In this document: positions 5,730 through 44,080 of the stretch, piece by piece
Layout of the letters: each line of letters starts with the position of its first letter
Position numbering within the stretch: the stretch's first letter is position 1
Origin: Psychrobacter lutiphocae DSM 21542
GTDB lineage: Bacteria > Pseudomonadota > Gammaproteobacteria > Pseudomonadales > Moraxellaceae
NCBI RefSeq assembly: GCF_000382145.1
Contig: NZ_KB907636.1
Location: forward strand, 1-64,000
Reading direction: 5' to 3'
DNA length: 64,000 bases
The notes under the pieces: generated by a model
The model's database searches: none
What the model saw: only the letters and a program-made list of their open reading frames with translations
What the model was told of the DNA's origin: nothing
Made by a program: the position numbers and the translations under genes

Positions 5730-5775
5730 TATAAAAAATCTCTTGATTTTTAAGTTTTAAATATGATTGGGTAGT

Positions 5776-5911: not shown

Positions 5912-5915
5912 TTAA

Positions 5916-5928
5916 GGACACGCCCTAA
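5916..5928 (-). repeat. degenerate GGGCGTGTC repeat terminus
   Basis: GGACACGCCCTAA is the reverse complement of the GGGCGTGTC terminus seen at 1396 and 15460. It lies directly next to palindromic repeat copy A. Confidence 0.35.
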
Positions 5929-5960
5929 GTATAATGTTATAAATCTGAGAAAAACCTGTC

Positions 5961-10424: not shown

Positions 10425-10518
10425 ATCACTATACGCTTATTATTGTCTTTATCAGGTTTTCGGAGTCTGTTGAACGATTCAGTCTTAGTCAGTTACTCGC
10501 CAGCTATTAACTGATTCG

Positions 10519-22395: not shown

Positions 22396-23724
22396 TTACT
22401 CAGGCTTCACCCAATCTCTAACATCAATCTTACCCGTCACCGCAGCGGAAATTAGCGCAGTTCGGCGTTCTGAAAGAAGTTGGATTTGTTGTTTCGCTTT
22501 ATTGCTTAACTTTTCAAAGGTTTCTATAAGATTCTTCAAATGCTTGCCTATTTCAACTTGTTCTTGATAAGGCGGAACTGCTATTTTTAGTGAATTAATT
22601 CTATCTACAGATATCCCAGGTTGTGCAGCTGAAACAGAGTATTGACCTAAATCCATAAATCTTAAAAACTCAGATAAAAAAACAATATCAAACTTTTCAT
22701 GAGGGTATACAACAACTGCATGTTCTGTAGCAAAGAACTTACCATGACCTAAATTAATGTTTCCGCAAAGGGCACCTTGTCTACCAATTAGTACATAATC
22801 ACCATCACAATTATATCTATTAGTATATCCTCTTAAACCATTCCCCCCTAGAACTGGGTACTCCCCCGTAGCTTCAATGTCATTAGAAGTAATTCCATCA
22901 CCACTAAGTAGCTTTAATTTAAAACTAAGCTTAGAAACCTCCCAATGCGCAGGAACCTCACCCAACCACTCAACCCCCGAATCTTTCATCGGCACATCAG
23001 GATTTAAACCTTTGGTCACTGCATGACTAATCACCGCTTGACGCTTTTCGGTCAATAGCTCGATTAAGCGTTGTTGTTTTTCGATAAGAGTATCTATTTT
23101 GGCGGTTTCGTGGTCTAGGAAGTTGGCAATCTTGATTTGTTCATCAACTGAAGGAGTTACTATTTTAATATTAACTAAATCACTTGAATTGATAGCTGGA
23201 TAACTAACACCTACAGACCTTGAAACAACTTCACCTATAAACCCTTTAAATCTAAGACTATATGATGCAAAGCCTTTATATAAAAGTTCTGTAGGTCTTA
23301 TTACCGCAAAGCCTGTTGAGACTACCATATTTTCAGGAGGGTTGTTAATTGGAGCTATTGCCTCTAAATATGTTCTAACAGTTGATAATATGACATCACC
23401 ATCTCTAACAATCCTTCTAGCCCTAGAGGGTGAGTTTTCATAAGTTATAGTTTCTGTATTTGTAATACCTTCTGTTGCTGAAACACTACCTATATCGACA
23501 TAGATTAGCTCTTTATCTTTTGACGTAGATTCAGGTAGAACTTCATCATTATAGGTACATAAGAATTTTAACTTCTGGGCATCCCAACCACTTGGAATAT
23601 CACCCAACCATTCAACCCCTGAGTCTTTATATTCAGGATAGGCTTTATAACGATTAGTCTGTTCATCCGCTTTATCATCAGTCACATACTTTAACGCGAC
23701 TTCATTTACTTGCGACTCAGCCAT
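22396..23724 (-). CDS. hsdS: type I restriction enzyme specificity subunit
   Basis: A 442-aa subunit that sets the DNA target of the HsdMS methylase and HsdRMS nuclease. There are two target-recognition domains, each opened by a repeated motif: YKDSGVEWLGDIPSGWD near residue 31 and MKDSGVEWLGEVPAHWE in the middle. Each ends in a coiled conserved region (LIEKQQRLIELLTEKRQAVISHAVTKG and QIQLLSERRTALISAAVTGK). The start codon overlaps the hsdM stop (TAATG), indicating translational coupling. A second copy of its 3' end at 21581-21650 hints at past allele exchange. Confidence 0.93.
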   Translation of the reverse strand: MAESQVNEVALKYVTDDKADEQTNRYKAYPEYKDSGVEWLGDIPSGWDAQKLKFLCTYNDEVLPESTSKDKELIYVDIGSVSATEGITNTETITYENSPSRARRIVRDGDVILSTVRTYLEAIAPINNPPENMVVSTGFAVIRPTELLYKGFASYSLRFKGFIGEVVSRSVGVSYPAINSSDLVNIKIVTPSVDEQIKIANFLDHETAKIDTLIEKQQRLIELLTEKRQAVISHAVTKGLNPDVPMKDSGVEWLGEVPAHWEVSKLSFKLKLLSGDGITSNDIEATGEYPVLGGNGLRGYTNRYNCDGDYVLIGRQGALCGNINLGHGKFFATEHAVVVYPHEKFDIVFLSEFLRFMDLGQYSVSAAQPGISVDRINSLKIAVPPYQEQVEIGKHLKNLIETFEKLSNKAKQQIQLLSERRTALISAAVTGKIDVRDWVKPE

Positions 23725-29800: not shown

Positions 29801-30495
29801 GACATCCTCTGGATCAATATCGTAAGGAGGTGGGCGTTTATACCGCTAATGCCCGATTAGACAGCCTGTCAGATACGGGTTACAACGGCAGCACCTTATT
29901 CGCTGGATTAATCATTGATATTGCCAACTTCGGTAACCGCTGCGTGATTACCTTAGATGATGGTACCGCGCGTTTGGAAGTCAGCTGTTATGCCGAACGC
30001 TTTAATCGCATCAAAGACAAGCTCAAAGTCGATGAAGTGATTGTTATTAAAGGTGGTATTCGAGATCGTGATGGGCGTTTATTCGCACGCTTAGACAATG
30101 CTTACACTTTACTTGAGTGTCGTCAACGTTGGGTGAAGAAAATTAGCGTTAAAATTCACAGCGAAGATACTCAGTTACTTGATTCCTTACTGCCTTTGCT
30201 CAAGCCTGCGCAATTAGATATTATCCCTACTGCTGTATCATTTTTAGAAGATGACAATGAAGCGAGCGAAGCAGATACAATGGATGCCTATTACAATCAA
30301 GACGGTGGTATGGCACCCGCTTCAGCAGCCAATCAAAACGATGGCTGTATTCCTTTGGCATTAAATGTATTTACCGATTACGCCATTGCCAGCGTGCAGC
30401 TCAATGATGATTGGCGCTTATATCCAACGGATGACAACTTAATGCAGTTAAGCCAAGTGGTGCCTGATGACCATTTATACTTTCATTATAGTTAG
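26878..30495 (+). CDS. dnaE: DNA polymerase III alpha subunit
   Basis: A 1205-aa replicative polymerase catalytic subunit. The N-terminal PHP domain starts FVHLGIHSEFSITDSII. The polymerase core carries GPGRGSGAGSLVAYAL at 358-373 and the catalytic aspartates in PDFDIDF at 399-405. Next come a helix-hairpin-helix region (YGLGAIKGVGEGAVESIV), an OB-fold (FAGLIIDIANFGNRCVITLDDGTARLEV) and a C-terminal tau-binding tail. The length is close to the 1160 aa of E. coli. It stands alone on the plus strand and its codon use is that of a resident core gene. Confidence 0.97.
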   Translation: MAFVHLGIHSEFSITDSIIRIKPMVKAAAADGQMALALTDLSNLYAAVKFYRACLDVGIKPIIGSEIILDDENTRLTLLAMDNEGYKSITRIVSLGYTDGRMNPENKGTPIVKKEHVFANSEGVIVLLTEKSDVGQALLGSNPERAIPLIEEYKAVFDDRLYFAIKRTKRAHEDAFIEQAINVGAQQGIAIVAHNDVRFLVEDDFDAHEARVCIATSHVLADPNRPHDYSSEQYLKTQQQMIELFADIPQVIDNTVVLAQRCNVTLTLGINVLPEFPVPEGETIESFFRSESQRGLNARLDKLYPVAERDDTWPEVRKPYDERLEHELNIILSMGFPGYFLIVMDFIRWAKANGVPVGPGRGSGAGSLVAYALNITDLDPLHYDLLFERFLNPERVSMPDFDIDFCIEGRDRVIEYVASQYGREAVSQIITFGTMAAKAVVRDVARVQSKSYGLADRISKLIPKTPGISLQDALIEEPQLKDLISNPNNMDYEDASEIWEMALKLEGITRNVGKHAGGVLIAPNKITDFSAIYCDEEGHRVSQYDKDDVEAVGLVKFDFLGLRNLTVINAAVKNINDRRARENKPPIELEDLPLDDANAYKLLQDAKTTAVFQLESSGMKKYLSKLQPTNIEDVIAMCALYRPGPLDAGMVEMYIDRKHGREQVVYDHPNLEPILENTNGVIVYQEQVMQISQVMAGYSLGGADMLRRAMGKKKPEEMAKQRNIFVTGATEQGIDPVVSGGVFDLMEKFAGYGFNKSHSAAYGVLAYQTAYLKYYYPAEFMAAVLTSDMNNTDNVVFFINDCRENFGLTVDNPSVNRSQWQFVADKPTNIIYGLGAIKGVGEGAVESIVQARNQGGIFTDLYDFCRRVDIKKVNKRTLEALIKSGCFDDFAENLRPDLAPNQRYQIRGALMDQLPSAVQAAEQERQNNEMGMMDLFSEVDNATTAPPLPTAPELIWGDKHRLKAEKDTLGLYLTGHPLDQYRKEVGVYTANARLDSLSDTGYNGSTLFAGLIIDIANFGNRCVITLDDGTARLEVSCYAERFNRIKDKLKVDEVIVIKGGIRDRDGRLFARLDNAYTLLECRQRWVKKISVKIHSEDTQLLDSLLPLLKPAQLDIIPTAVSFLEDDNEASEADTMDAYYNQDGGMAPASAANQNDGCIPLALNVFTDYAIASVQLNDDWRLYPTDDNLMQLSQVVPDDHLYFHYS

Positions 30496-30991
30496 TTGCA
30501 TAACAGTTAGCTTCACGACAGCTCATTGATGTTATTTGATGCGCCAACCTCAATTTAAAGTATAAGCTGTAGCTTATGCAAGGTTTGGCTCCCTTCCTTT
30601 CTCAAAGGAAGGGTTGGGGATGGATTTTCAACAAACATCGCAAATAATCCCCCTAAATCCCTGAGGAGGGATAAAGCAAAGCACTGCTTTGCCCCGACGT
30701 AAGAGAAAATCTATGATTTTCTAAACTGAAAAAGGGGGACTTGCCACCCTTTTTAGTATTTTGTAACAGATAAGCTAAAGATACTGTCAATAAACTTATA
30801 AGGTTACCAACTATTCATGTTGAGAGTGGGGTATTTGATGGATATTACAAGTAATAAATAACAACAGAAAAAGAAGCTAAAAAAAGAAGTCCCAGTTATA
30901 AACTAGGACTTCTTTTTTATACTAACTTTATGCTAAAACATTAAGCTCATTTGCTTAATAGAAACCGTGAGCTAAACACTATGAGCTAAAA
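30496..30991. repeat. hairpin-rich non-coding stretch after dnaE
   Basis: No gene is visible. At 30591-30613 CCCTTCCTTT and AAAGGAAGGG form a perfect 10-bp stem with a CTC loop. A second dyad, GCAAAGCA/TGCTTTGC, lies near 30673-30690, and the text TCCCCCTAAATCCCTGAGGA lies between. The look is that of a dispersed intergenic repeat, but only one copy is in the window. A terminator for the dehydrogenase gene is at 30880-30919. Confidence 0.45.
30880..30919. terminator. bidirectional intrinsic terminator
   Basis: AAAAAAGAAGTCC and GGACTTCTTTTTT form a long stem, with AGT/ACT extending it over an imperfect loop. A-rich and T-rich flanks let it work on both strands. It lies 70 bases past the alcohol dehydrogenase stop and can also stop dnaE readthrough. 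Confidence 0.8.
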
Positions 30992-32149
30992 CTATGAGCG
31001 TGCTTCAAAGGCCGCTTCAAAGATGCCGATAACATCTGCTTTATCACCCTGTACTGGGTTGGTCACCGCACACACATCTTTTAATGCGTTTTCTGCCAGC
31101 TCATCAAAGTCTTCACGTTTAACGCCCAGCTCTTTTAGCGACTTAGGAATATTGACAATGTCTGCCATTCTCTTAATCGCATCAATAGTATTCAAGCCAG
31201 CCAAGTCACTGTTATTATCTACCAATATCTTACCTATTTCATCCAAACGCTGCTTGGCCGTCTCTGAAGTTTGGTTATAAGCTTCCACGTGAGGCAATAG
31301 TAAGGCGTTACATACGCCATGTGGCAAGTTATACATACCACCCAACTGGTGCGCCATCGCATGGACATAACCCAATGATGCGTTGTTAAATGCCATACCC
31401 GCTAAGAACTGCGCATAAGCCATGTCATCACGTGCTTGCATGTTTTTTGGCTCTGCAACGGCGACTGGCAAGGCTTTTGCAATCAACTCAACCGCTTTTA
31501 ATGCACACGCATCAGTAATAGGGCTAGCACCTGTCGATACGTAAGCTTCAACTGCGTGAGTTAAAGCATCCATACCCGTAGCGGCAGTGAGGCTTGCTGG
31601 CATGCCTGCCATTAACTCTGGATCATTAATAGACAAGATTGGTGTCACATTACTATCAACGATCGCCATTTTGATATGACGCTCTTCGTCAGTAATAATG
31701 GTGAAGCGTGTCATTTCTGACGCGGTACCTGCCGTAGTATTAATAGCAATCAAAGGCAGTTGACTGGTCTTTGATTGATCCAAGCCTTCATAGTCTTCAA
31801 TTTTACCACCGTTGGTCGCTACCAGAGCAATGCCTTTGGCACAGTCATGTACAGAGCCACCACCTAATGAGACAACACTATCAGCTCCATGCTGCTTTAA
31901 CTGATCTAGACCAGCATTTACATTGCTCACTGTTGGGTTAGGTTGTACTTCTGCGAACACAGAAACATCAATATCTTTAGACTGAAGCAGTTCTTTTACT
32001 TTGTCTGCTAAGCCAATACCTGCGATGCCTTGGTCTGTCACCAACAATACTTTTTTTAGGTTCAGTTTACTGATTTGGTCAATACCTGCTTGTAATGCAC
32101 CTTCACCAATTAGGTTGTTTGAAGGCATAAAAAATTGTGATAAAGCCAT
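30992..32149 (-). CDS. iron-containing alcohol dehydrogenase (YiaY/AdhB-like)
   Basis: A 385-aa group III NAD(P)-dependent alcohol dehydrogenase. The nucleotide-binding [16 protein letters not shown] (near 96-111) and the metal-binding patterns [14 protein letters not shown] and [24 protein letters not shown] are complete. As I recall E. coli YiaY, similarity runs along the whole length. It likely interconverts short-chain alcohols or diols and aldehydes; the substrate is not decided by sequence. RBS AGGAG lies just before the ATG. Eight GACTAT hexamers (minus strand ATAGTC) begin 13 bases upstream of the start codon, so expression may vary with repeat number. Confidence 0.9.
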
Positions 32150-32162
32150 GGGGTTCTCCTTT

Positions 32163-32210
32163 GACTATGACTATGACTATGACTATGACTATGACTATGA
32201 CTATGACTAA
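32163..32210. repeat. GACTAT hexanucleotide array at the dehydrogenase leader
   Basis: Seven perfect GACTAT units and an eighth reading GACTAA. It lies between the promoter side and the AGGAG ribosome binding site of the alcohol dehydrogenase gene. Slippage would alter leader or promoter spacing in steps of six without touching the frame. Confidence 0.9.
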
Positions 32211-33403
32211 TATTAAAAAAAGTGAAAAAGTTAAAAAAAGTGAATAAAGTTAAAAAAAGCGAATAAAGTTATATAAAGCACCCCGCTCTCAACTATTTAT
32301 AACCTATTGATATTTAAATTATAACCTATTGATATTTAAAGGTTTATACCAGTAAATCTTAACAACTAAATATTTTAAGCCCTTTAAAATCAAGGGTTAA
32401 GAAAAAAGAGTTGAGATTCGGATATAAAGTAGATCAGTGATGTGGTGAAAATTTGGTTTAGTTATAATTTAACATTAATCCGCTTTTGTATTGTGGATAT
32501 TTGATTGCAAATAGGTAAACATATTTAACTGCGGCACTGCTCTCAGCCAATATTTATCATATATATAGCATCACATACCAAGACTCATATCAATAAATAC
32601 ACATCTCAATAAATGATGGGGAGTGAAATGATGAAGACTATCAAAACCCATTACCTAGCTATCTGATTATGCTGTATCTACTTTGAGCAAATTTTGATTA
32701 AACTTAACTAAAATCAATGCCATTAGTAGACAAATAAAAAAATAGACGGTCAAAAAAATGATTAAAAAATGACCAAAATGAGCTCAATTAATGTAACGTA
32801 ACGTTTCAATTTAGAGGTTATGGTAACTGCAAAATTTTTAATTTTTTCGGCTACGGGCTGTTTGCAATCATAGCGAGAAGACACAGGCGCGCATAATTTT
32901 TTTATTTAAACTGTCAAAAATAATTAAGCACCAATAAAACTCAATTAACATATAAAAATCCGCAAAACCTTATATTTCAACGGATTTAAACAATTATCTG
33001 CTGCTTTTAGTGTTGATTAATAGAGATAGATAACAAAAAAAACCCTATATAACTAAGTTAATTTCTATTAATTAAAACTTAACAGTTTAATTGCGTTTTC
33101 CGAATACATTTGCCCACAAACAGTAAACTACTAATGTACATCAACTGTAACTCAGTGCTTGCCAATATGAGCGTTGCTACATATACTAGTCGCCAATAAG
33201 TGATAAAAACCAAACAAAAAAATAATTTTTGATTGTGAGGTTTTACTTACTTATTATGATTAAGTCAACGCTCAATATTGATGTATACATCTAAGAGATT
33301 GGCTTTAATTGTAATGTTGTTATTTCACTGTTTTTATAAATATTATCTGTATAATTTTTATAATAACTAAACTACTAAATCTAAAAAAAATAGGATAATA
33401 ACT
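32211..33403. other. 1.2-kb AT-rich non-coding region
   Basis: No gene is visible. At 32214-32270 three units resembling AAAAAAAGTGAATAAAGTT follow one another, and ATAACCTATTGATATTTAAA is nearly repeated at 32301-32341. A 12-codon frame at 32629 (MMKTIKTHYLAI) has a fair RBS but ends at once. A TATAAT at 33350-33355, about 50 bases before the next gene, may be its -10 box; the -35 box is weak. The region is unusually long and AT-rich for this window. Confidence 0.45.
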
Positions 33404-34096
33404 ATGTCAAGCAAATTAGAACTATTAACCCCACAAAACTCTCAAGTAATCTTTATTGACCAACAGCCACAAATGGCGTTTGGCGTACAGTCAATTGACC
33501 GTCAAACTCTAAAAAACAACGTCGTTGCTTTAGCTAAATCAGCCAAAGTATTCGACATCCCAGTAACGATTACTACTGTTGAAACTAACAGCTTCTCTGG
33601 TCACACTTACCCAGAATTACTAGCTGTATTCCCAGAAAACAAAATCCTAGAGCGCACTTCAATGAACTCTTGGGATGACCAAAACGTACGTGATTTCCTA
33701 GCGAAAAACGCACAAGAAGGTCGTAAGAAAGTTGTTGTATCAGGTCTATGGACTGAAGTATGTAACCTGACCTTCTCACTATCTTGCTTACAAGATACTG
33801 ATTATGAAATCTACATGGTAACTGACGCTTCAGGCGGTACTTCAGTTGAAGCACACGAACAAGCTATCAACCGTATGATTCAAGTTGGTGTTGTGCCTGT
33901 AACTTGGCAGCAAGTGCTACTAGAATGGCAACGTGACTGGGCAAAACGTGACACTTATGATGCAGTTATGGACGTTGTAAGAGAGCATTCAGGTGCTTAC
34001 GGTTTCGGTGTTGACTATGCATACACTATGGTTCACGGTGCTCCAGAGCGTACAGAACATGGCGAAATGATTGGTCCAAACCCAGCTAACAAATAA
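33404..34096 (+). CDS. isochorismatase-family cysteine hydrolase (YcaC-like)
   Basis: A 230-aa cytosolic hydrolase. The catalytic triad of the family can be traced: D19 (FIDQQ), Cys120 (LWTEVC) and a basic residue, R84, where YcaC also has Arg instead of the usual Lys. The fold suits amide or N-C bond hydrolysis, but the substrate is unknown. Codon use is strongly biased to few codons, which suggests high expression. RBS TAGGAT precedes the ATG. The next genes, XapX protein and amidohydrolase, point the same way and often occur with this hydrolase in Moraxellaceae and pseudomonads (from memory). Confidence 0.8.
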   Translation: MSSKLELLTPQNSQVIFIDQQPQMAFGVQSIDRQTLKNNVVALAKSAKVFDIPVTITTVETNSFSGHTYPELLAVFPENKILERTSMNSWDDQNVRDFLAKNAQEGRKKVVVSGLWTEVCNLTFSLSCLQDTDYEIYMVTDASGGTSVEAHEQAINRMIQVGVVPVTWQQVLLEWQRDWAKRDTYDAVMDVVREHSGAYGFGVDYAYTMVHGAPERTEHGEMIGPNPANK

Positions 34097-34278
34097 GTCA
34101 TAAACCTATTGTTGGCGCGTTTGAGGTAATACAATAAGGCGTTTAACATAAGTTTATAACTGGTTAAGCTTATAACTAGTAGAAGAGGATTAATTGAGTA
34201 TGAGAGTTAACACCTGATTTGGTTGCTTCTCTGCTTGATTAATCCTTTATTTTTAACAACCCTAAGAGGATATAAATT

Positions 34279-34533
34279 ATGAAAATTTATATTGTATCCC
34301 TAATTGTAGGTGTTCTTGTTGGGGTTCTTTACGGTGTTCTTAATGTGCGTTCACCAGCACCACCAACGTGGGCGTTAGCAGGCCTATTAGGCATGTTGCT
34401 TGGTGAGGACATTGTTAAATACACCAAACAACATTTTTCTAAAACAGAGCAAGTACAAGTCCAGCAGCAACAATCAGCACAAAGCCCTGTTGCAACAAAA
34501 GCGACAACCGATAAAAACGGTGCAGACACTTAA
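34279..34533 (+). CDS. XapX-domain small membrane protein
   Basis: An 84-aa protein with two membrane segments (about 3-22 and 29-43) joined by NVRSPAPPTWALAGLLGMLLGE, the XapX signature. A short Gln/Lys/Thr-rich cytosolic tail follows. The domain's function is unknown; it may be a transport or membrane partner of the two flanking hydrolases. RBS AAGAGGA lies 10 bases before the ATG. The gaps of about 180 and 160 bases on either side contain no gene and no clear terminator. Confidence 0.85.
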   Translation: MKIYIVSLIVGVLVGVLYGVLNVRSPAPPTWALAGLLGMLLGEDIVKYTKQHFSKTEQVQVQQQQSAQSPVATKATTDKNGADT

Positions 34534-34695
34534 TGCTGCTAACAACTCATTTCATTGACAACAATGTTTCATTTTTGTCTAGCTAGTAAATAACGCTATG
34601 ATGGTCAAAACGACTATCTTCAATTGTCAGATAGCCATAACAAACAATATCTCGTTGACTACCATGCTTATTAACACGATATTAGGATAATAATT

Positions 34696-36582
34696 ATGAC
34701 AACTCCCGACATTATTTATTATAACGGTAAAATAACTACCCTCGATCGATCTAATCCTACGGCATCAGCGGTCGCAATCAAAGATGGACGCTTTGTTAAA
34801 GTTGGTACTGACTCAGAAGTTTTAGATTTGGCTGGCTCAAACACAAAATCTATTAACCTAAAAGGTCGTAGCGTACTACCAGGTCTATTTGATAACCATA
34901 CTCACGTTATCCGTGGTGGCTTGAACTACAATATGGAACTACGTTGGGATGGTGTTCGCTCACTAGCTGATGCGATGGCAATGCTAAAAGATCAAGTTGA
35001 TAAGACACCTGCACCTCAGTGGGTACGTGTGGTTGGTGGTTTTACTGAAAATCAATTTGTTGAAAAACGTTTACCAACTATTGATGAATTAAACGCCGTT
35101 GCACCAGATACACCTGTATTCATCTTGCACTTATATGACCGTGCCTTACTCAACGCAGCTGCTCTACGTGCCGTTGGTTATACCAAAGAAACTCCAGAAC
35201 CACCAGGTGGCGAAATTCAGCGTGATGCCAATGGTAATCCAACAGGTCTGTTATTGGCAAAACCAAACGCAAGCATCCTATATGCGACGTTAGCGAAAGG
35301 TCCAAAACTACCTTTCGATTATCAGCTAAACTCTACTCGTCACTTTATGCGTGAATTAAACCGCTTAGGGGTTACTGGTATTATTGACGCTGGTGGTGGC
35401 TCACAAAACTTCCCTGATGATTATGAAGTCATTCAAAAGTTGCATGAAGAAGATCAGCTAACCGTACGCATGGCATACAACTTATTTACGCAAAAGCCAA
35501 ACGAAGAAAAAGAAGACTTCTTAAACTGGACCTCCTCAGTAACCTATAAACAGGGGGATGATTACTTCCGCCATAACGGTGCAGGTGAAATGTTGGTTTA
35601 TTCAGCAGCTGACTTTGAAGACTTCCGTCAGCCACGCCCTGAAATGCCACCAAATATGGAAGAAGATCTTGAAGAGGTCGTACGAATTTTGGCTCAAAAT
35701 AAGTGGCCTTGGCGCTTACACGCAACCTATGATGAAACGATTGAGCGTGCCTTAAACGTATTTGAAAAGGTTAATAAAGAGATTCCATTTGAAAACTTAA
35801 ACTGGTTCTTTGATCATGCTGAGACTATCTCTCAAAAATCAATCGACCGTATCGCTGAATTAGGTGGTGGTATTGCTGTTCAGCACCGTATGGCCTATCA
35901 AGGTGAGTACTTCGCTGAGCGCTATGGCACAGCAGCAGCCTCTAATACTCCACCAGTGAAGCAAATGCTTGAAAGTGGTGTTAAGGTATCAGCTGGTACT
36001 GATGCCACTCGTGTTGCGTCATACAACCCTTGGGTATCATTAGCTTGGTTGATCAGTGGTCAAACTGTTGGCGGTATGCAGCTGTATGATCAAGACAACC
36101 TACTAGACCGTGAAACTGCACTACGTATGTGGACAGAGAACGTAGCTTGGTTCACTAACGAAGAAGGCTCACGTGGTCGTATCGAAGAAGGTCATCTAGC
36201 TGACTTTATCGTACCGAACAAAGACTTCTTTGCAGTACCAGAAAATGAAATTCCATACTTAACTTCAGACTTAACTGTGGTTGGTGGTAAGCCTGTCTTT
36301 GGTGCTGGCGAGTTCTCTGACTTTGACAACCCAATTCCACCAGCAATGCCAGATTGGTCACCAGTTAACAAATATGGTGGTTATGCCGCTTGGGCAGATC
36401 CAGAAGGTGCTGGTAAAAACTCATTAGCGCCTAATGGTGCAGCAATGGCCGCATCTTGTGGTTGTTCAAGTGCTTGTGCTGTGCATGGTCACAACCACGC
36501 TAAAGCATGGAATTCAAGTGTTCCTGCTTCTAGCATGAAAGACTTCTTTGGCGCCTTTGGTTGCTCTTGCTGGGCAGTGTAA
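34696..36582 (+). CDS. YtcJ-like amidohydrolase with Cys/His-rich C-terminal tail
   Basis: A 628-aa amidohydrolase-3 family protein. The metal-binding HxH is in LPGLFDNHTHVIRGG (about residue 68), FFDHAETIS gives a later His and SAGTDATRV the catalytic Asp. It has no signal peptide, so it is probably cytosolic. The last 50 residues (after WADPEGAGKNSLAP) carry SCGCSSACAVHGHNH and FGCSCWAV, six Cys and three His not needed by the core fold and possibly a second metal site. Strong codon bias matches the upstream isochorismatase gene. Substrate unknown; an amide or carbamate is typical. Confidence 0.82.
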   Translation: MTTPDIIYYNGKITTLDRSNPTASAVAIKDGRFVKVGTDSEVLDLAGSNTKSINLKGRSVLPGLFDNHTHVIRGGLNYNMELRWDGVRSLADAMAMLKDQVDKTPAPQWVRVVGGFTENQFVEKRLPTIDELNAVAPDTPVFILHLYDRALLNAAALRAVGYTKETPEPPGGEIQRDANGNPTGLLLAKPNASILYATLAKGPKLPFDYQLNSTRHFMRELNRLGVTGIIDAGGGSQNFPDDYEVIQKLHEEDQLTVRMAYNLFTQKPNEEKEDFLNWTSSVTYKQGDDYFRHNGAGEMLVYSAADFEDFRQPRPEMPPNMEEDLEEVVRILAQNKWPWRLHATYDETIERALNVFEKVNKEIPFENLNWFFDHAETISQKSIDRIAELGGGIAVQHRMAYQGEYFAERYGTAAASNTPPVKQMLESGVKVSAGTDATRVASYNPWVSLAWLISGQTVGGMQLYDQDNLLDRETALRMWTENVAWFTNEEGSRGRIEEGHLADFIVPNKDFFAVPENEIPYLTSDLTVVGGKPVFGAGEFSDFDNPIPPAMPDWSPVNKYGGYAAWADPEGAGKNSLAPNGAAMAASCGCSSACAVHGHNHAKAWNSSVPASSMKDFFGAFGCSCWAV

Positions 36583-36710
36583 CCGCTAAGGTTCTACGCC
36601 TACTCTAAGGTAACAACGTTAGTCTTTTCTTTAAAGGCTAACTAAAAAAAGAAGCTAGTTATATAAAATTATAACAAGCTATAAAAGAAGTTAGAAGTTA
36701 ACAATATACA

Positions 36711-36747
36711 AAAACAGCCCGTTGATACTTCAACGGGCTGTTTTTTT
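36711..36747. terminator. strong intrinsic terminator
   Basis: AAAACAGCCCGTTGA and TCAACGGGCTGTTTT form a 15-bp perfect stem with a TACT loop and T-run. It lies between the convergent amidohydrolase and DUF3726 genes and is symmetrical enough to serve both. Confidence 0.9.
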
Positions 36748-36865
36748 AGATAGCTATTTTTTAGATGCTCACTGTTTAGGTGCTTACGTTTAAGCTGATA
36801 ACGCAAGACTACAAAAGCATGAATAACTAAACTTTATCTGGGTCTTCGCTTTAGCCTTGAACCAG

Positions 36866-37648
36866 CTATGCGCCTCCAGCACCACGCATTGAAGCTTCAC
36901 TATTTTTAACCAGCATATGTCTTGCCGTCTCTTTTAGCTTCTGCCACTCTTGCTCATCTACTTCAATACCCTTATCCCAAGACTGTTGATGACTTGCTAA
37001 AATATCATCGGCACTGACAAGCTGTGCATATTGATTGTCGTAATCGTTGATTTCAAAATTGTGATAAGCCAGCTCTATCGTCATATTTTGAATACTGTCA
37101 GCGTTTTTGCTGGCCTGATTATTATAAAAGTACAGGTCTGGATAAATACTACCTAGATTTAAAATAAACAAGGTGTGTTTAGGGTCACTGCCATTGTCCC
37201 AACGTGCCATACAAGCAATGCCTTTGGGTGCTAATTTTACTAGCTCACCATAAGCCAACCAACGGTTACGACATTTTTTTAACTCTAATACCAAATGTTC
37301 GCTGTCCGTCAATTGCTCTAACGCATAGTCAATAATCGCAGGTAAGTGATATACCAGACTATTGCCATGAAAGTCGAATTCTAGCTTTTTGGTCTCAGCA
37401 ACCACTGGATGCGCAACCTCATCAACCACCACATCATCGATAATCTTATCGCCCACAATTTCTATCGCCACTTCCTGCTCAGAGAACAAAAAATCACTGG
37501 CTTTATTAAATTGGCGAATACCGTCTAAGCCTGCCATTTGTAATTCAGCAACCATATTGGCAATCAAATCTGCTTCACCACATTCTCGGTGCATCCCTAA
37601 AAAGGCTTTTTGTACCAATGTAATAATTTCATTGTGCGATACGATCAT
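36866..37648 (-). CDS. DUF3726-domain protein
   Basis: A 260-aa protein. I choose the ATG at 37648 (MIVSHNEIITLVQKAFLGM) because it overlaps the preceding stop as ATGA and has GGAGT upstream; a longer frame to 37720 would run inside the previous gene. The N-terminal SHNEI...KAF...GEADLIANMVAELQMAGLDGI is the DUF3726 signature. The function of the domain is unknown. It is the last gene of the LysR-linked operon and is translationally coupled to the 575-aa protein, so the two probably act together. Confidence 0.8.
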   Translation of the reverse strand: MIVSHNEIITLVQKAFLGMHRECGEADLIANMVAELQMAGLDGIRQFNKASDFLFSEQEVAIEIVGDKIIDDVVVDEVAHPVVAETKKLEFDFHGNSLVYHLPAIIDYALEQLTDSEHLVLELKKCRNRWLAYGELVKLAPKGIACMARWDNGSDPKHTLFILNLGSIYPDLYFYNNQASKNADSIQNMTIELAYHNFEINDYDNQYAQLVSADDILASHQQSWDKGIEVDEQEWQKLKETARHMLVKNSEASMRGAGGA

Positions 37649-39372
37649 AACGATACTCCTTCTTGTGCTGCCTCTTCTGGTTGTAACTCCCCAATCTTCG
37701 GTAACAAAGGAAATAACCATTCTTCGCCGTGAGCTTCTTTAAATAAAGGAGCACCCTGAAACAAGGTAATACGTACCCAGCGATCTGAACGTGGGTCAAA
37801 TTTGGTTGCGCCGAACATTGCTAATTTACAGCGCAGCAAGTGCATCGGTAATGCCTCTTTATGTAGCACATTCATTTGAATGTCGCCCATCAGTTTGTGA
37901 CCCATACTCCAGGTACGACGAATGATGCCACGATACTTAGGCTGCTTTAAGATAAACTCGGACAGCTTCATCTCAGGGTCTACATCTTGAATGGCCAGAT
38001 ACAAGTTACGTGCTTGACGACCGATATCCAGTGGCAATTCCTTTTCTACACCCTCTTCTTCACCACGTATGCCCAATCTCGGCTCTTCTTTGTCTTCAGA
38101 GCGATACCAGAACCAATAAGAATTATCAGGTTCGTTATAGTCGGTGTGAATGGCCCACTGATAGCGTGATTCTAATACCTGCTGTAAATCTTTGACTTTT
38201 TTGCCAAGTGGCAATTCCATATTCTCATCTGCATTCATGTCAGATTCGAAGGTGTCAACGATTTCTGGATATAGCTCCATCAAGCAAGCAATCAGCACTT
38301 CATGTGCTTCAAGACTTAGATGTTCATAATGGGTCAACACCTCACGCCAAGTGCTGTGCTTTAATATCTCCTCATCAGAGATGCTTTGTAAATCACTCAC
38401 AGCAGTAGCATTTAATTGAATCTGATTGTCATCGATGGTAACAATTTCACTAAAATGCTGAATGGCACGCTGTAAATATTTATGCAGTAGTGCTGCTTTA
38501 TTAGGTTCTACAGCCTCATCCAGTACAACTGCTAACGCCTGCTCTCTGGTACTTAGCCACTTATCCACGATGCAAGGATGATTGATTAAATACGGTGCCA
38601 TACCAAGTCCTGTGGCATTACCAACACCTAGGTATCTTTGTAGCTTAGGATGCAGACTTACCGCCTTATCGCCGCCTTTGTTTTTTGCCAAAAAGTCTAC
38701 CCAGTCTAAGCTAAACTGTTTTAGCAAATACACCGCACACATTTGTGCACTAAATGACTGACCAAAATCAGCACTGTTTTCTAACGGTTTAAAGTCATGA
38801 ATACCAAATTTACCGTTCCCATAAACGGCTGTGGTTCTTAAGATATAACCAACTTGCGCCAATACTTCTGGATCTGGCTGGTTGCCAGATGCCAAGCGAT
38901 CTACGATATGATCAAATACACGCACACTTTTATTAGCACGTGCCAGTACGATAACTTTATTTGAGTTTCTTCCGGCTTCTTGTAGCGGCACATTTTCACT
39001 TAACTGTTTTAAAAGCTCATCAGGCACATCACCATGCACCATGCAGAAAGTAACATCCCACCTATTGGCAATAACGCGGTCAATGCGCTCTTCATCTGAG
39101 ATTTCATCACAGAATATAACCAAATGATAAATCCCATTGTGGGTATCCAATCGATAGGTCACATGTCCATAACCTTCAGGAGATAACCCCCAATCTGCCA
39201 AGCTAAGCTGCCATTTTTCTTTAGCAATTTTCCTAAGCAAGGTTCTGACAAAGCTTAGCCGAGTCTGATGCATAGAGCCCAATCGGTTGGGGTCCATCAC
39301 CACGCTTGGCGCTCTTAATGTAGGTACTTGTGTATCATTTCCCTGATTATTTTCAACTTTGTTTATGTGCAT
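37645..39372 (-). CDS. unrecognised 575-aa operon protein
   Basis: A soluble 575-aa protein without signal peptide or membrane segment. The N-terminal 60 residues are basic (RLSFVRTLLRKIAKEKWQL); a stretch near 75-110 reads GHVTYRLDTHNGIYHLVIFCDEISDEERIDRV; the C-terminal part has WSMGHKLMGDIQMNVLHKEALPMHLLRCKLAMFGATKFDPRSDRW. I recognise no catalytic motif or family. Overlap with the DUF3726 gene (ATGA) and position behind dipeptidase and aldehyde dehydrogenase genes suggest a role in the same pathway, perhaps as a large subunit or novel enzyme. Confidence 0.7.
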   Translation of the reverse strand: MHINKVENNQGNDTQVPTLRAPSVVMDPNRLGSMHQTRLSFVRTLLRKIAKEKWQLSLADWGLSPEGYGHVTYRLDTHNGIYHLVIFCDEISDEERIDRVIANRWDVTFCMVHGDVPDELLKQLSENVPLQEAGRNSNKVIVLARANKSVRVFDHIVDRLASGNQPDPEVLAQVGYILRTTAVYGNGKFGIHDFKPLENSADFGQSFSAQMCAVYLLKQFSLDWVDFLAKNKGGDKAVSLHPKLQRYLGVGNATGLGMAPYLINHPCIVDKWLSTREQALAVVLDEAVEPNKAALLHKYLQRAIQHFSEIVTIDDNQIQLNATAVSDLQSISDEEILKHSTWREVLTHYEHLSLEAHEVLIACLMELYPEIVDTFESDMNADENMELPLGKKVKDLQQVLESRYQWAIHTDYNEPDNSYWFWYRSEDKEEPRLGIRGEEEGVEKELPLDIGRQARNLYLAIQDVDPEMKLSEFILKQPKYRGIIRRTWSMGHKLMGDIQMNVLHKEALPMHLLRCKLAMFGATKFDPRSDRWVRITLFQGAPLFKEAHGEEWLFPLLPKIGELQPEEAAQEGVSL

Positions 39373-39528
39373 CTAGATTTCCTTATCGTTCGTACTGTTA
39401 TAAAGTTTTATTTTTTGTTTGCGGTCTATCTCCTGTATCTATCAATAACTGTCGTAAGTTTTTCTTTTTACCGATGACTGTCTATTATTTGTAGTTGAAT
39501 CGATCTGATAAGAAGTTAACTGCTGAGC

Positions 39529-40527
39529 CTATTGAAGACTGAGCATAGGTGTTAACGACTTTTCTAAAAAGTCATACCAGTTGCCACCGATAATCTGACC
39601 TGCTTCTTTATCACTAAAGCCTGTTTTTAGAAGGCCTTGATAGATGTTTTGCATGCCATCTTCGCCAGAAAACCAAGGTAGTGGGTCTGGCCAACCTGAG
39701 TTATTGGCAGAACCTTCTCCATAATCCATTTGCTTTGACCAGCGGCCATTACGCATCCATTCAAGGACAGATTGTGGTTGGTTTAAGCACAAGTCACTGC
39801 CGATGCCCAGATGTTCTACGCCGACCATATCAGCAGTTTTGGCAATCATCTGACAAAAATCTTCCAAAGTACAGTCACTACCGTTTGGTAAATGGAAGGG
39901 ATAGAGACTAAAGCCAAGCAATCCGCCTTTGGCTGCTAAGGCTTTAATCACCGTATCCGATTTATTACGGAGCGCATCATGTGCAAAGGTTGGATTGGCA
40001 TGACTGATACAGATTGGACGCTCAGAGATATCAATTGCTTCAAGTGTTGAAATCTCAGCACTGTGCGACATATCGATAATCATGCCCACTCGGTTCATTT
40101 CACGTATGGCTTGCTGACCAAAGCGTGTAATACCTGTGTCTTTTTGCTCATAACATCCGGTAGCCAATAGGCTTTGATTGTTATAAGTCAGCTGCATGAT
40201 TAATAAGCCTTGCTGACGCATCACACTAATCAGACCAATTTCATCATCAATTGGTGAGCAGTTTTGCGCACCAAATAAAATGCCGACCTTACCCAACTCT
40301 TTTGCTTTTTTAATATCTTCAACTTGATAGACTGGCATAATCAAATCTGAATTACGCTCAAATCGATAATCCCATTCTGCAAATCTTGTTAACGTAGCAC
40401 GCGCATCTTCGTGATAAACCAAAGTAGCGTGAACAGCATCAATACCACTGGCTTTGAGCATCAAAAAATAATCTCTATCCCAGTGACTGTATTGCAGACC
40501 ATCGATGACAATATGTTGTTGAAACAT
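39529..40527 (-). CDS. M19 (renal/membrane) dipeptidase-like protein, variant active site
   Basis: A 332-aa metallo-hydrolase-fold protein. I place the start at 40527 (MFQQHIVIDGLQYSHW) with AAGGAAG six bases upstream; the longer frame to 40581 lacks an RBS. Family marks are MIIDMSHSAEISTL, ICISHANPTFAHDALRNKSD and HLGIGSDL. The usual DGHxD metal motif near the N-terminus is replaced by DGLQYSHW, as also in a Pseudomonas subgroup near betaine-catabolism genes (from memory). Dipeptidase activity is therefore doubtful; a different C-N hydrolase role in this operon is plausible. Confidence 0.8.
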   Translation of the reverse strand: MFQQHIVIDGLQYSHWDRDYFLMLKASGIDAVHATLVYHEDARATLTRFAEWDYRFERNSDLIMPVYQVEDIKKAKELGKVGILFGAQNCSPIDDEIGLISVMRQQGLLIMQLTYNNQSLLATGCYEQKDTGITRFGQQAIREMNRVGMIIDMSHSAEISTLEAIDISERPICISHANPTFAHDALRNKSDTVIKALAAKGGLLGFSLYPFHLPNGSDCTLEDFCQMIAKTADMVGVEHLGIGSDLCLNQPQSVLEWMRNGRWSKQMDYGEGSANNSGWPDPLPWFSGEDGMQNIYQGLLKTGFSDKEAGQIIGGNWYDFLEKSLTPMLSLQ

Positions 40528-40651
40528 GGTACTTCCTTGTGACCCGAAGTAAGCGCTTGATCGCTTAACGCTAACGAACACGCCAAGCCATCACAGCAGC
40601 TTACAATATATAAAACGACTTATCGTTAACTAAAAATTAATAAGTACCGAA

Positions 40652-42121
40652 CTAATAAGCACGCTGATAAGCAGTTTTAACAATGGTGTAAAACTCTTTG
40701 GCATATTGACCTTGCTCGCGTGGACCAAAGCTAGATTGCTTACGACCACCAAATGGCACATGGTAATCCGTACCTGCTGTGGCTAGATTCACCATCACAC
40801 AACCGGCTTGTACTTGCTCTTTAAACAAGGCGCTATTGCGTAAGCTTTGAGTGATAATGCCACCGGTTAGACCAAAACGAGTGTCGTTGGTTAAGGCAAT
40901 GGCCTCTTCAATGTCATCACTGATGCGAATCACAGACGCCAGCGGTGCAAACACTTCTTCTTGGTTGATATCCCAGTTGTTTTCGGTGCCCAGTAATAAG
41001 GTTGGCGCCATGTAATAACCATCATGCGGCATATCTAAGCGCTGACCACCTGTAGCAATTTCGCCGCCTTGTTGCTTGGCTTTGTTAATCCAATCTAGGT
41101 TTGAGGCCAGCTGCTTATCATCGACCACAGGGCCCATGAATACGCCTTCTTCTAAGGCATGACCCACCTTTAATTGCTCAATACGCGCGGTTAATAGATC
41201 TACATATTCATCATAAATGCTGTCCATTACCAATAGACGTGATGAGGCCGTACATTTTTGACCTGCGCCTGAAAATGAACCGGCAATACTGGCATCAATG
41301 GCAATTTGTAAATCAGCATCATTGGCAATAACCAACGCATTTTTACTGCCCATCTCAAGCTGGCAACGCACAAAGTTTGGCGCTGTGGCTGCTGCCACTT
41401 TGCGGCCTGTTGGCACAGAACCGGTAAAGCTAACCGCATCAATGTCTGCAGAGTTAATGAGTGCATCACCCACTTGGCTACCACTACCTAACACTAGGTT
41501 AAATGTGCCTGCTGGCAAACCATGGCGATGGATAATTTCAGTTAACGCAACCGCACTGGCTGGCGTTAAGTTAGCAGGCTTCCAAATGACACTGTTACCA
41601 AAGGCTAATGCGGGTGCGATTTTCCAAACAGCTGTCGCGGTTGGGAAGTTCCAAGGTGAAATAATGGCAACCACACCAACCGCTTCACGAGTGACTTCAA
41701 TTTTTACCCCTGGGCGCACTGAATCGGCTAAGTCGCCCATTTGACGCAATACTTCAGCGGCAAAATAATGGAAGAACTGACCTGAGCGATAAATCTCGCC
41801 ACGGCCTTCAGCAAATGGCTTGCCTTCTTCACGTGATAATAAGCGGCCTAGCTCATCACAGCGGGCAATCAGCTCATCACCGATAGACTGTAAGATGGCT
41901 TGTTTACGCTCCATAGGCGTACGTTCCCACTCAGGTTGCGCACGGCGGGCGGCGGCAATGGCTTCTTCTACCAAGGCGGCATCTGCTTGCGCATAGTCAC
42001 CGATGGTTTCGGTAATGTCTGATGGGTTAATGTTTGGTACTGTGTGAGTGCCGGTGCGCCATTCGCCATTAATATATAGCGCATTGGTTGTCGGTAAGTT
42101 GTCGATTGCTGAATTTGTCAT
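40652..42121 (-). CDS. aldehyde dehydrogenase, 2-oxoglutarate-semialdehyde type
   Basis: A 489-aa NAD(P)-dependent dehydrogenase. The start at 42121 (MTNSAIDNL) has AAGGA about ten bases upstream. The core is complete: ISPWNFPTATAVWKIAPAL, FTGSVPTGRKV, the catalytic Glu in QLEMGSKNA and Cys in GAGQKCTASSR. The C-terminal VMVNLATAGTDYHVPFGGRKQSSFGPREQGQYAKEFYT is characteristic of alpha-ketoglutaric-semialdehyde (2,5-dioxopentanoate) dehydrogenases, which end sugar-acid and hydroxyproline routes. The substrate is inferred by likeness only. It is second in the LysR-linked operon. Confidence 0.88.
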   Translation of the reverse strand: MTNSAIDNLPTTNALYINGEWRTGTHTVPNINPSDITETIGDYAQADAALVEEAIAAARRAQPEWERTPMERKQAILQSIGDELIARCDELGRLLSREEGKPFAEGRGEIYRSGQFFHYFAAEVLRQMGDLADSVRPGVKIEVTREAVGVVAIISPWNFPTATAVWKIAPALAFGNSVIWKPANLTPASAVALTEIIHRHGLPAGTFNLVLGSGSQVGDALINSADIDAVSFTGSVPTGRKVAAATAPNFVRCQLEMGSKNALVIANDADLQIAIDASIAGSFSGAGQKCTASSRLLVMDSIYDEYVDLLTARIEQLKVGHALEEGVFMGPVVDDKQLASNLDWINKAKQQGGEIATGGQRLDMPHDGYYMAPTLLLGTENNWDINQEEVFAPLASVIRISDDIEEAIALTNDTRFGLTGGIITQSLRNSALFKEQVQAGCVMVNLATAGTDYHVPFGGRKQSSFGPREQGQYAKEFYTIVKTAYQRAY

Positions 42122-42311
42122 AGTGCATGCATCCTTTGCTTTGCAGTTGAGTGTTAAGCTCATTGGTTATTTATGGATAAAGAAATTGTCTGTTACACCA
42201 TAAAGTGACCCATGGCTTTTTTTGTTATTAAGTTTTTTTTGAATCTGATAAAGTTTTTTTGAATCTGAGTTTTAAATGGGTATGTCATTGGTTATGTAAT
42301 GATCTAATCTA

Positions 42312-42710
42312 TTAGTCTTTGTCAGTGACGCTGGCATAAACCACAAACTCGACCAGCATCTCTTCACGTGCCAGCCCTGCGACCACAACTGCAGCTCTGT
42401 TTGGAAACGGTGGCTTAAAGTATTCAGCATAAACTTGATTCACAGTCGCTAAATATTCACGTTCGGTCACATAGATAAGTACTTGAATGACAGAATCCAT
42501 GTCTTCACCGGCACAAGCTAAGGTATGTTTTAGGTTTTCAAAGGTTTGACGAGTTTGAGCTTCAATGCCACCTTCTACTACCACACCACTATCATCAATC
42601 GGAATCTGTGCGGTATATAAAGTACCTTTACTAACCACTGCCCATTCTAAAGGTGCTTTAGAAGCATATAATTCTGTTTTAACAGGGGTTTTTGCTGCTT
42701 TCTGTGACAT
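42312..42710 (-). CDS. RidA-family protein (YjgF/YER057c/UK114)
   Basis: A 132-aa protein; start at 42710 (MSQKAAKTPVKTELY) with AAGGAT eight bases before it. RidA marks are YTAQIPIDDSGVVVEGGIEAQTRQTFENLKHTLACAGEDMDSVIQVLIYV and FPNRAAVVVAGLAREEMLVEFVVYAS. The usual RidA Arg that holds the imine carboxylate (in PxRxxV/T) appears to be the Arg in NRAAVVV. It probably hydrolyses an enamine/imine or acts as a specific deaminase. It is the first gene of the operon and faces the LysR gene. Confidence 0.88.
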   Translation of the reverse strand: MSQKAAKTPVKTELYASKAPLEWAVVSKGTLYTAQIPIDDSGVVVEGGIEAQTRQTFENLKHTLACAGEDMDSVIQVLIYVTEREYLATVNQVYAEYFKPPFPNRAAVVVAGLAREEMLVEFVVYASVTDKD

Positions 42711-43174
42711 GCTGGGATCCTTCCTCTTTATTATCAGCACCTTTTTAAGGGGCACCGTCTTTATTAAAATTGTCTGACCTAAGGCTATTTCACCTAAATC
42801 TGTTTAGAATCAAGGTTAACACTGGTCGTCCTATACCACTGAGCCATACCACTACCATTGAATGAAACTTAGGTTCTTGGTTAATTGTTATATTACGTAA
42901 ACAAAAATGATAAATCTAACAAATTATATTTATAAAACGATAGATTTTATCTATCAAAAATATTATGATAAGCCATAAGCACCGAGTTTAAAGCGTTAAC
43001 CAACCTCCAACGCTCTAGGTTATTGTTTATTGATATTATTTAAACTTACCGTTAAAGTTATTGCACAAATTAAAAGTTATCATACATATTAAAAATACGC
43101 CCTAGTATTAAAGATCACCTACTATTAATAATTGACAATGGATCGAACCGTTGCAACTGCCCATTAAGACCAAT
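42711..43174. promoter_or_regulatory. divergent control region between operon and LysR gene
   Basis: About 460 AT-rich bases between ridA and the LysR gene, the normal place for a LysR operator. AT-rich dyad candidates lie around 42900-42965, but no single T-N11-A palindrome stands out. The 43056-43105 stretch is repeat sequence (GTTATTGCACAAATT ... ACGCCCTAG). Confidence 0.5.
43056..43105. repeat. MITE-end fragment upstream of the LysR gene
   Basis: GTTATTGCACAAATT followed by a diverged stretch and ACGCCCTAG matches the right end of the 15460-15645 element. It lies 70 bases from the LysR start codon and may alter its promoter. Confidence 0.5.
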
Positions 43175-44080
43175 ATGAACATCAAATTACAACAATTACG
43201 CCATTTTTTATTTGTGGTAGAAGAAGGTGGCTTTCGCTCAGCGGCTGCCAAAGCAAATCGCTCTCAAGCTACTTTGTCATCCTCTATCAAAGCCTTAGAA
43301 AGGCAGCTGGGCAAATCTTTATTTGAAAGCGGAAATAATGCAGTGCTCACCACCTTTGGTAAACAGTGTTTGCCAAAAATCCAACAATTTATGGATATCT
43401 ATCAAAGACTTGAATCCGAGCTACACACAGCAGCATTAGGAAAAAGTGGTAAAATTAGAATTGCCAGTGTGCCGTCTTTAGCCACTAAACTACTACCAAA
43501 CGTACTGGCAGAATATTCCAAACGTTACCCTCAGGTCGAAATTAGTCTTTTGGATGATAATTCTGAAGGTGTTTGTAGCCGATTGCTAGCAGGTGACGTG
43601 GATGTCGCCTTAGGTAACCTAAGTGCGAGTATGAAAGATGAGGTGCAGTTTTATCCCTTATTAACAGATCCTATTGGTGTGGTGTGTAGTGTCCACCATC
43701 CTTTGGCTCGTCATAACTCTGGTATATTATGGCAACAGCTCAGCTGCGAGCCTTTTATTTATAACGGTACTTGTCATCTACTCGATACAACGCCTGCATA
43801 TGTCTTAAATTTAAATCCCAAATATGAAGTCGGTAATATCACCTCATTATTTTCTTTAGTGAGAAATGAGTTGGGAGTGACTACTTTACCCAAGCTAGCG
43901 TTTCCAGAGTATGACGACAAGCTCGTCTGGTTACCATTAATCGACCCACCGTTGCAGCGCCAAATTGGTATTTTTAGTGTTAAAGGCAGAAGCCTATCTC
44001 CGCAAGCTGAGATATTTACTGACTTATGTATCAACTATGTCGAAAACCTTAAAAAAACTCAAACAGGTTGGAAAGATTAA
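43175..44080 (+). CDS. LysR-type transcriptional regulator
   Basis: A 301-aa regulator. I use the ATG at 43175 (MNIKLQQLRHFLFVVEEGG), which fits the family start exactly; an in-frame TTG at 43151 would add eight unusual residues. Residues 1-60 form the winged helix-turn-helix (FRSAAAKANRSQATLSSSIKALERQLG); residues 90 onward are the periplasmic-binding-like effector domain (GKIRIASVPSLATKLLPNVLAEYSKRYP). It is divergent from the ridA operon and is its likely regulator, sensing a pathway compound. Confidence 0.9.
   Translation: MNIKLQQLRHFLFVVEEGGFRSAAAKANRSQATLSSSIKALERQLGKSLFESGNNAVLTTFGKQCLPKIQQFMDIYQRLESELHTAALGKSGKIRIASVPSLATKLLPNVLAEYSKRYPQVEISLLDDNSEGVCSRLLAGDVDVALGNLSASMKDEVQFYPLLTDPIGVVCSVHHPLARHNSGILWQQLSCEPFIYNGTCHLLDTTPAYVLNLNPKYEVGNITSLFSLVRNELGVTTLPKLAFPEYDDKLVWLPLIDPPLQRQIGIFSVKGRSLSPQAEIFTDLCINYVENLKKTQTGWKD

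Follow-up and report, generated by a model that had tools for sequence, protein, structure and literature searches.

What a bacterium degrades with five clustered genes that include no transporter is the question raised by a locus of Psychrobacter lutiphocae DSM 21542, whose genome is available as a 3.17 Mb draft. The locus lies in the stretch of DNA analysed here, called the window below (64,000 nucleotides, positions 1 to 64,000 of the forward strand of contig NZ_KB907636.1). Its genes encode, in order, a RidA/YjgF family protein, an aldehyde dehydrogenase (ALDH), an M19-like amidohydrolase, an orphan protein of 575 residues (H575 in what follows) and a DUF3726 protein, with the gene for a LysR-type regulator lying divergently. 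The first-pass annotation of this DNA had reported that order together with an ATGA coupling of the last two genes, a terminator and the regulator, and all of these are found where it had placed them. The five genes, with their LysR regulator, make up a genuine bacterial catabolic operon, which is with high certainty the gammaproteobacterial form of a conserved operon. As to its function, we lean towards the view that it is the RidA-type version of a widespread operon for the degradation of an N-methylated zwitterionic betaine, most likely homarine (N-methylpicolinate). Homarine is a methylated pyridine compound that is widespread in the sea. Our confidence is moderate for homarine as the substrate and lower for RidA as the exit of the pathway. 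The operon itself is of an ordinary catabolic kind, but it is an informative variant.

The idea of a single conserved, LysR-linked operon, put forward in the first-pass annotation, is borne out by co-occurrence in other genomes. Loci encoding H575 were searched for with peptides taken from the protein of the window; of 89 that were confirmed, the best 80 were kept, a set that is therefore biased to close relatives. Within this set, genes for RidA, ALDH, M19, a BCCT betaine-type transporter, H575 and DUF3726 stand in one order in 78 loci; the exceptions (L and G handles denote loci and genomes) are L018, which has no RidA gene, and L093, which, like L151, is cut by a contig end. A divergent LysR gene accompanies 78 of the 79 loci that hold both ALDH and M19, with no LysR match at L095. 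Because the same order recurs across genera, it is more than chance. The divergent gap also holds a perfect palindrome, GATAGAT-N3-ATCTATC, which occurs once in the window and in none of 100 shuffles. A relaxed form of it is present in 33 of 285 loci (20 of the 80 kept gammaproteobacterial loci and 13 of 15 Psychrobacter loci), always between LysR and the first gene, and a LysR operator is the simplest reading of this candidate site. The operon has an uneven distribution in the genus, DUF3726 being found in 15 of 36 genomes, the window's own included. Of the named organisms in the kept set, P. phenylpyruvicus DSM 7000 (L018) is the closest; its H575 is 74% identical and its operon adjoins trmJ-type and cysE-type genes, by eye the same as in the window.

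The absence of a transporter had also been noted; as a general trait of the system it is not supported. In relatives, a BCCT gene between M19 and H575 is a sixth gene of the operon, present in all 79 kept loci and all 15 Psychrobacter loci that have ALDH and M19. The window has at this site a gap in which no convincing BCCT remnant was found (best match E 1.6). Elsewhere in its genome, the best BCCT shares 30% identity with the copy in the operon of P. phenylpyruvicus; the operon BCCTs of relatives are at least 53% identical to the copy of Pseudomonas sp. MPC6. Since relatives carry the gene within the operon, its absence is a local loss of the operon's own uptake gene in this strain, and not a trait of the system. 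The BCCT or glycine-betaine-type ATP-binding cassette (ABC) transporters of relatives point to a quaternary-ammonium betaine and away from the hydroxyproline or opine-like compounds suggested earlier. The earlier expectation of a nitrogenous substrate is supported.

The operon reaches well beyond the gammaproteobacteria. H575 is encoded in 29 of 398 drawn Pseudomonadota genomes and in 53 of 385 drawn alphaproteobacterial genomes, and neighbourhoods were taken for 20 of the latter 53, with some others fetched separately; 12 annotated plasmid loci were chosen from 168 records. In most of the loci from drawn genomes and plasmids the M19, H575 and DUF3726 genes occur together as a trio, in two main settings. 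One, to which the window belongs, consists of LysR, ALDH, M19, H575 and DUF3726 with either RidA or an Ldh-family reductase, often with a BCCT or betaine ABC transporter; the other is the trio without ALDH. Glycine-betaine ABC genes lie beside the operon in Shinella and Aminobacter. Four alphaproteobacterial genomes of only 1.2-1.4 Mb encode H575 (G475, G632, G714 and G679); by their size and G+C (0.28-0.36) the compact genomes may be SAR11-like, and that of 1.41 Mb (G475) holds Ldh, OpuAC-type ABC genes, ALDH, M19, H575 and DUF3726 in one block. The family also crosses domains: a plasmid of the haloarchaeon Natrinema versiforme (L135) carries an H575 homologue of 33% identity with a BCCT gene nearby. 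A single protein of Mesorhizobium sp. 131-2-1 combines H575 with DUF3726. This is the only fusion that stands; candidate M19-H575 (L160, 922 residues) and Ldh-H575 (L164, 909 residues) fusions were dropped, as blastp finds H575 alone in both frames. One further H575 match (G515:C43:1070-2302) contains 14 internal stops (7 TGA, 1 TAG and 6 TAA) and is probably a decayed copy.

Alphaproteobacterial clusters, those of the 1.2-1.4 Mb genomes included, often hold an Ldh-family reductase in the place of RidA. Among 128 loci with ALDH and M19, drawn from five overlapping locus sets (L018 and L190, for example, are the same species), RidA stands next to the operon in 102 and Ldh in 15, while 11 have neither and none has both. 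This tally uses an identity threshold of 45% for RidA and leaves out 31 of 159 loci that do not have ALDH (at least 50% identity) plus M19; among these 31, Ldh occurs in 8 and RidA in 0 at the thresholds used. RidA genes do exist below them, since Sinorhizobium locus L133 has two at 33-39% identity, and L137 has one annotated RidA gene. Genome-wide searches of 24 operon-bearing gammaproteobacterial genomes, in 22 of which RidA was seen beside the operon, found an Ldh_2 protein anywhere in 2 (G101 and G121); a SoxB/Mgd-like protein, at 52% identity, was found in G101 alone, which has two copies. Neither protein was found in the window's genome, nor was a full-length Mgd/Sox alpha subunit, the sole match being partial (27%). 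RidA probably acts by hydrolysis on the imine that Ldh reduces.

A second clue lies next to the operon. In Phaeobacter inhibens, Ruegeria sp. TM1040 and Aliiroseovarius crassostreae (on roseobacter plasmids) and in drawn genome G168, it adjoins a four-gene 'sarcosine oxidase' cluster, with an AraC/GlxA-type gene in between. A tree of 34 SoxB-like proteins (30 of 53 matches plus four plasmid copies) places the four operon-adjoining copies in a ten-row clade (98/98) with those of G365, G278, G152, G235, G638 and G187. The copies of G365, G278, G152 and G235 lie about 1, 8, 15 and 15 kb, respectively, from a type III glutamine-synthetase-like gene over the cut-off, which we take to be the usual annotation of gmaS. 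In R. pomeroyi (SPO1584-1588) tmaR, a gene of AraC type, is next to mgdABCD (PMC13390433), and both the AraC-type neighbour and the four-gene order are the same beside the roseobacter operons. Because of this neighbour, and of the clade shared with copies near gmaS, the adjoining cluster probably encodes N-methylglutamate dehydrogenase (Mgd). G168 and G187 keep the 'sarcosine oxidase' cluster although no gmaS there passes the cut-off, a hint that their N-methylglutamate comes from something other than methylamine.

These observations point to homarine as a likely substrate. Mgd takes part in homarine catabolism (PMC13390433), and it is an Mgd-type cluster that stands beside the operon in roseobacters. 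A homarine operon of environmental bacteria has been reported (Ferrer-Gonzalez et al. 2026, Nat Microbiol 11:1531). The homarine operon is reportedly homABCDER, five genes plus a regulator, with N-methylglutamate in its pathway and with occurrence in SAR11 and SAR116. The roseobacter set of ALDH, M19, H575, DUF3726 and Ldh with LysR would likewise amount to five enzymes plus a regulator, and it may correspond to hom, as may the operon of the compact genomes. The window's version differs from the homarine operon in having RidA in place of Ldh, in a genome without Ldh_2 or a full-length Mgd/Sox alpha subunit, and MgdABCD is absent from 23 of the 24 gammaproteobacterial genomes searched. Among the papers searched, none from 2023 on mentions homABCDER, none brings together membrane dipeptidase, BCCT, RidA and related terms, and a search on trigonelline gave one unrelated paper.

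We infer the substrate, each reaction, the order of the steps and the partnership of H575 with DUF3726 from the gene set, as follows. A BCCT (a glycine-betaine-type ABC transporter in some alphaproteobacteria) would import the betaine; in the window's strain another BCCT would have to do so. The chain formed by the carboxyl and ring carbons of homarine has six carbons and N-methylglutamate has five, so that one ring carbon must leave. H575 and DUF3726 would attack the N-methylpyridinium ring, an assignment made because the other steps are taken by the remaining enzymes, and cleavage of the N-C6=C5 unit would give an N-formyl, C5-semialdehyde intermediate. Such a product would suit exactly two genes of the operon: the M19-like amidohydrolase would take off the formyl group and ALDH would oxidise the C5 semialdehyde to the acid. 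The kynurenine pathway has an analogous order, with a formamidase acting after a dioxygenase. Some loci have genes for the handling of formate in their neighbourhood, namely purU in Shinella and, beside the SoxB-like cluster in G632, formate-tetrahydrofolate ligase. The resulting C2 N-methyl imine or enamine could then have two fates. In alphaproteobacteria the Ldh-family imine reductase, whose Ldh_2 relative DpkA is both an imine reductase and an N-methyl-amino-acid dehydrogenase (PMC6110843), would turn it into N-methylglutamate, which Mgd would convert to glutamate; in gammaproteobacteria RidA would hydrolyse it to 2-oxoglutarate and methylamine. A chemical parallel is trigonelline (trg) degradation in Acinetobacter, in which another N-methylpyridinium carboxylate is opened by a ring-cleaving flavin monooxygenase, with N-formyl chemistry; a Pfam scan of the window's five operon proteins, in contrast, shows no flavin monooxygenase or reductase.

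RidA scores below the TIGR00004 cut-off (74.9 of 106.25 bits), but it has the Rid-family Pfam profile and the conserved arginine: against its closest solved chain, 1xrg (E 4.9e-20), FPNR aligns with YPAR and the P-x-R arginine, presumably catalytic, is kept. ALDH, which carries GQKC and EMGSKN motifs, had been likened to 2-oxoglutarate-semialdehyde enzymes. The 2,5-dioxovalerate and alpha-ketoglutarate-semialdehyde dehydrogenases are indeed its nearest matches, but with 464 of 750 bits (NF052305) and 463 of 770 bits (NF042993) it falls under both equivalog cut-offs and is not a member. The M19-like protein is closest to 2i5g, a solved chain named just 'amidohydrolase' (E 1e-59). True M19 dipeptidases have HxD metal ligands; here, as in 2i5g, this pair is absent (the N-terminus reads VIDGLQYS), while the DMSH, ISH and GSD motifs are kept, and we propose that the protein is an N-deformylase or amide hydrolase.

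Two of the five proteins had been listed as having no known role. This holds for H575: scans of Pfam and NCBIfam gave nothing at E <= 0.1, solved-structure sequences gave no convincing match (best E 0.49), and a model with a mean predicted local distance difference test score (pLDDT) of 75.3 gave no Foldseek match at E <= 0.001 (best 0.29) and a best VIA-align Z of 4.2. The missing structural match does not make the modelled H575 a new fold, as the protein is long and parts of the model are of low confidence. It no longer holds for DUF3726. An AlphaFold2 model made from 26 sequences (pLDDT 85.3, predicted template modelling score 0.81) has Ldh_2-type oxidoreductases as its top Foldseek and VIA rows, with 1nxu at Foldseek E 3.5e-7, Z 18.3 and a root-mean-square deviation of 3.0 over 212 aligned residues (14% identity). 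The first 15 VIA entries have Z of 13-18 (1wtj, 16.6) and the next has 6.3, so an Ldh_2 fold is predicted, like that of YiaK, ureidoglycolate dehydrogenase and delta1-piperideine-2-carboxylate reductase, although the matched chains are about 120 residues longer. By eye, the SHG of Ldh_2 enzymes, whose histidine we assume to be catalytic, is replaced by G-L-x-G, the column between invariant G40-L41 and G43 being variable. DUF3726 had no convincing match among solved-structure sequences, and none of the papers searched mentions it by name. A bolder proposal, which we put forward tentatively and would not rely on, is that H575 and DUF3726 form a new two-subunit enzyme, a catalytically altered Ldh_2 fold with an orphan partner, that attacks N-methylpyridinium without a recognisable flavin, haem or Rieske oxygenase, and that gammaproteobacteria have swapped Ldh plus Mgd for RidA, yielding 2-oxoglutarate and methylamine.

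Several observations weigh against the homarine pathway or its RidA exit. The operon occurs with neither RidA nor Ldh alongside in five alphaproteobacterial loci of the phylum draw (L162, L163, L166, L168 and L176) and three of the alphaproteobacterial draw, and RidA is also missing from the P. phenylpyruvicus operon (L018 and L190). G101 breaks any strict rule, being of RidA type yet carrying its SoxB-like copies and Ldh_2 genes. The Shinella SoxB-like copy falls outside the Mgd clade, and in G371 another SoxB-like copy, one absent from the tree, has a gmaS at a distance of 18 kb. The predicted fold of DUF3726 has no counterpart in its sequence, PF02615 being absent at E <= 0.1 and the hhalign profile probability being 0.3. 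The loss of BCCT makes uptake of the substrate uncertain in this strain. Finally, the correspondence to hom is drawn from a citing paper and from what is reported of the hom operon, and the functions of the present genes are predictions from sequence.

The most serious alternative, which we consider unlikely but which deserves real weight, is that this is a conserved betaine operon whose substrate, at least in gammaproteobacteria, is another N-methylated zwitterion such as trigonelline, stachydrine, carnitine or an ectoine-like solute. The BCCT and OpuAC families are not specific to one betaine, and Mgd, the sole link to homarine, is mostly missing from RidA-type genomes. The trio, moreover, appears to serve several substrates. 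At L167, in the setting without ALDH, it lies beside MTTB, a DMGDH/GcvT protein and homocysteine methyltransferase, a gene set that hints at a route by which a third betaine is demethylated. In a divergent kind from Sinorhizobium and Neorhizobium (L133 and L137; 25-29% identity) the trio is accompanied by polyamine-type ABC genes and RidA, joined in S. meliloti by genes for an aminotransferase and a semialdehyde dehydrogenase, and it seems to handle a second substrate there. Homarine is nevertheless favoured by the Mgd-type neighbour in roseobacters, which to our knowledge the routes for trigonelline, stachydrine and carnitine do not need, and by the orthology of ALDH, M19, H575 and DUF3726, in order, in both classes. 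Deamination of hydroxyproline, an opine or a similar amino compound with the help of RidA, followed by oxidation through 2-oxoglutarate semialdehyde, would account for RidA and for the nearest matches of ALDH. It is very improbable, as ALDH scores far under the equivalog cut-offs, the window's operon encodes none of the enzymes (epimerase, oxidase, dehydratase, deaminase) of a hydroxyproline route, the conserved transporter is a BCCT, and H575, DUF3726 and the Mgd neighbour would be left unexplained.

That M19 is a true dipeptidase, with the other genes processing a released amino acid, is scarcely credible: the Pfam match to Peptidase_M19 speaks for it, but the HxD pair is absent and the annotated plasmid loci show no conserved peptide transporter (the comparison of 80 loci included no probe for one). 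A different kind of alternative concerns the strain and not the substrate, namely that the operon is a relic here, with BCCT gone and the rest decaying. The loss of BCCT and a leader of the first gene that is longer than in nine aligned Psychrobacter relatives would agree with this. We nonetheless regard decay as improbable, as all five reading frames are intact, the palindrome is perfect, other BCCT genes exist elsewhere in the genome, and divergence from P. phenylpyruvicus is low in nonsynonymous relative to synonymous changes where both are computable (ALDH, dN 0.08 and dS about 2.0; M19, dN 0.126 and dS 2.3). H575 also shows purifying constraint with a dN of 0.195, dS not being computable for H575 and DUF3726.

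The layout of the favoured betaine operon is given in the table. The DUF3726 ATG overlaps the H575 stop, the mechanical list of open reading frames placing the DUF3726 start further upstream. In the three wider gaps of the operon (148, 124 and 156 bases) the hairpin scan listed no terminator-like site. Because the 8 such sites of the whole region are about as many as expected from shuffles (7.6), only the long 16-pair hairpin beyond DUF3726 stands out. This hairpin is symmetric and follows a convergent amidohydrolase gene as well.

Features of the operon and its surroundings in the window of P. lutiphocae DSM 21542
Feature	Position	Strand	Evidence
RidA/YjgF family protein, 132 residues, predicted enamine/imine hydrolase; first gene of the operon	42312-42710	minus	PF01042 (Ribonuc_L-PSP) 3.7e-23
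Aldehyde dehydrogenase (ALDH), 489 residues from ATG 42121 or 503 residues from ATG 42163	40652-42121 or 40652-42163	minus	PF00171 (Aldedh) 6.4e-152
M19-like amidohydrolase, 332 residues, without HxD metal motif	39529-40527	minus	PF01244 (Peptidase_M19) 2e-70
156-base gap, site of the BCCT transporter gene in relatives	39373-39528		relatives' loci and remnant search
H575, orphan 575-residue protein, hallmark of the cluster	37645-39372	minus	relatives' loci; no family match
DUF3726 protein, 260 residues, predicted Ldh_2 fold	36866-37648	minus	PF12525 (DUF3726) 6e-16; structure model
Divergent LysR-type regulator, 301 residues from best start ATG 43175	43175-44080	plus	PF03466 (LysR_substrate) 8.1e-40, PF00126 (HTH_1) 3.9e-15
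Palindrome GATAGAT-N3-ATCTATC, candidate LysR operator	42939-42955		pattern search against shuffles
16-pair hairpin with T tail, terminator-like	36710-36745	minus	hairpin scan

About 6.4 kb (30496-36865) separates the operon from dnaE (26878-30495) in the window, against 174 bases in P. phenylpyruvicus (L018). The interval in the window holds genes for an iron-type alcohol dehydrogenase, an isochorismatase-family hydrolase and a YtcJ-like amidohydrolase. The amidohydrolase at 34696-36582 has at its end an unusual tail, rich in Cys and His (CGCSSACAVHGHNH...FGCSCWAV). Farther away (3294-15090 and 22396-23724) lie UvrD-type and RecD-like helicase genes that resemble recBCD, plus a type I restriction specificity gene.

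If the homarine reading is true, a likely substrate would be named for an operon that is common to many marine Vibrio, Photobacterium and Psychrobacter species, and two ends of one marine nitrogen-cycling pathway would be brought to light. RidA would gain a direct catabolic job, beyond the control of imine damage, and DUF3726 and the unnamed 575-residue family would become a testable enzyme pair.

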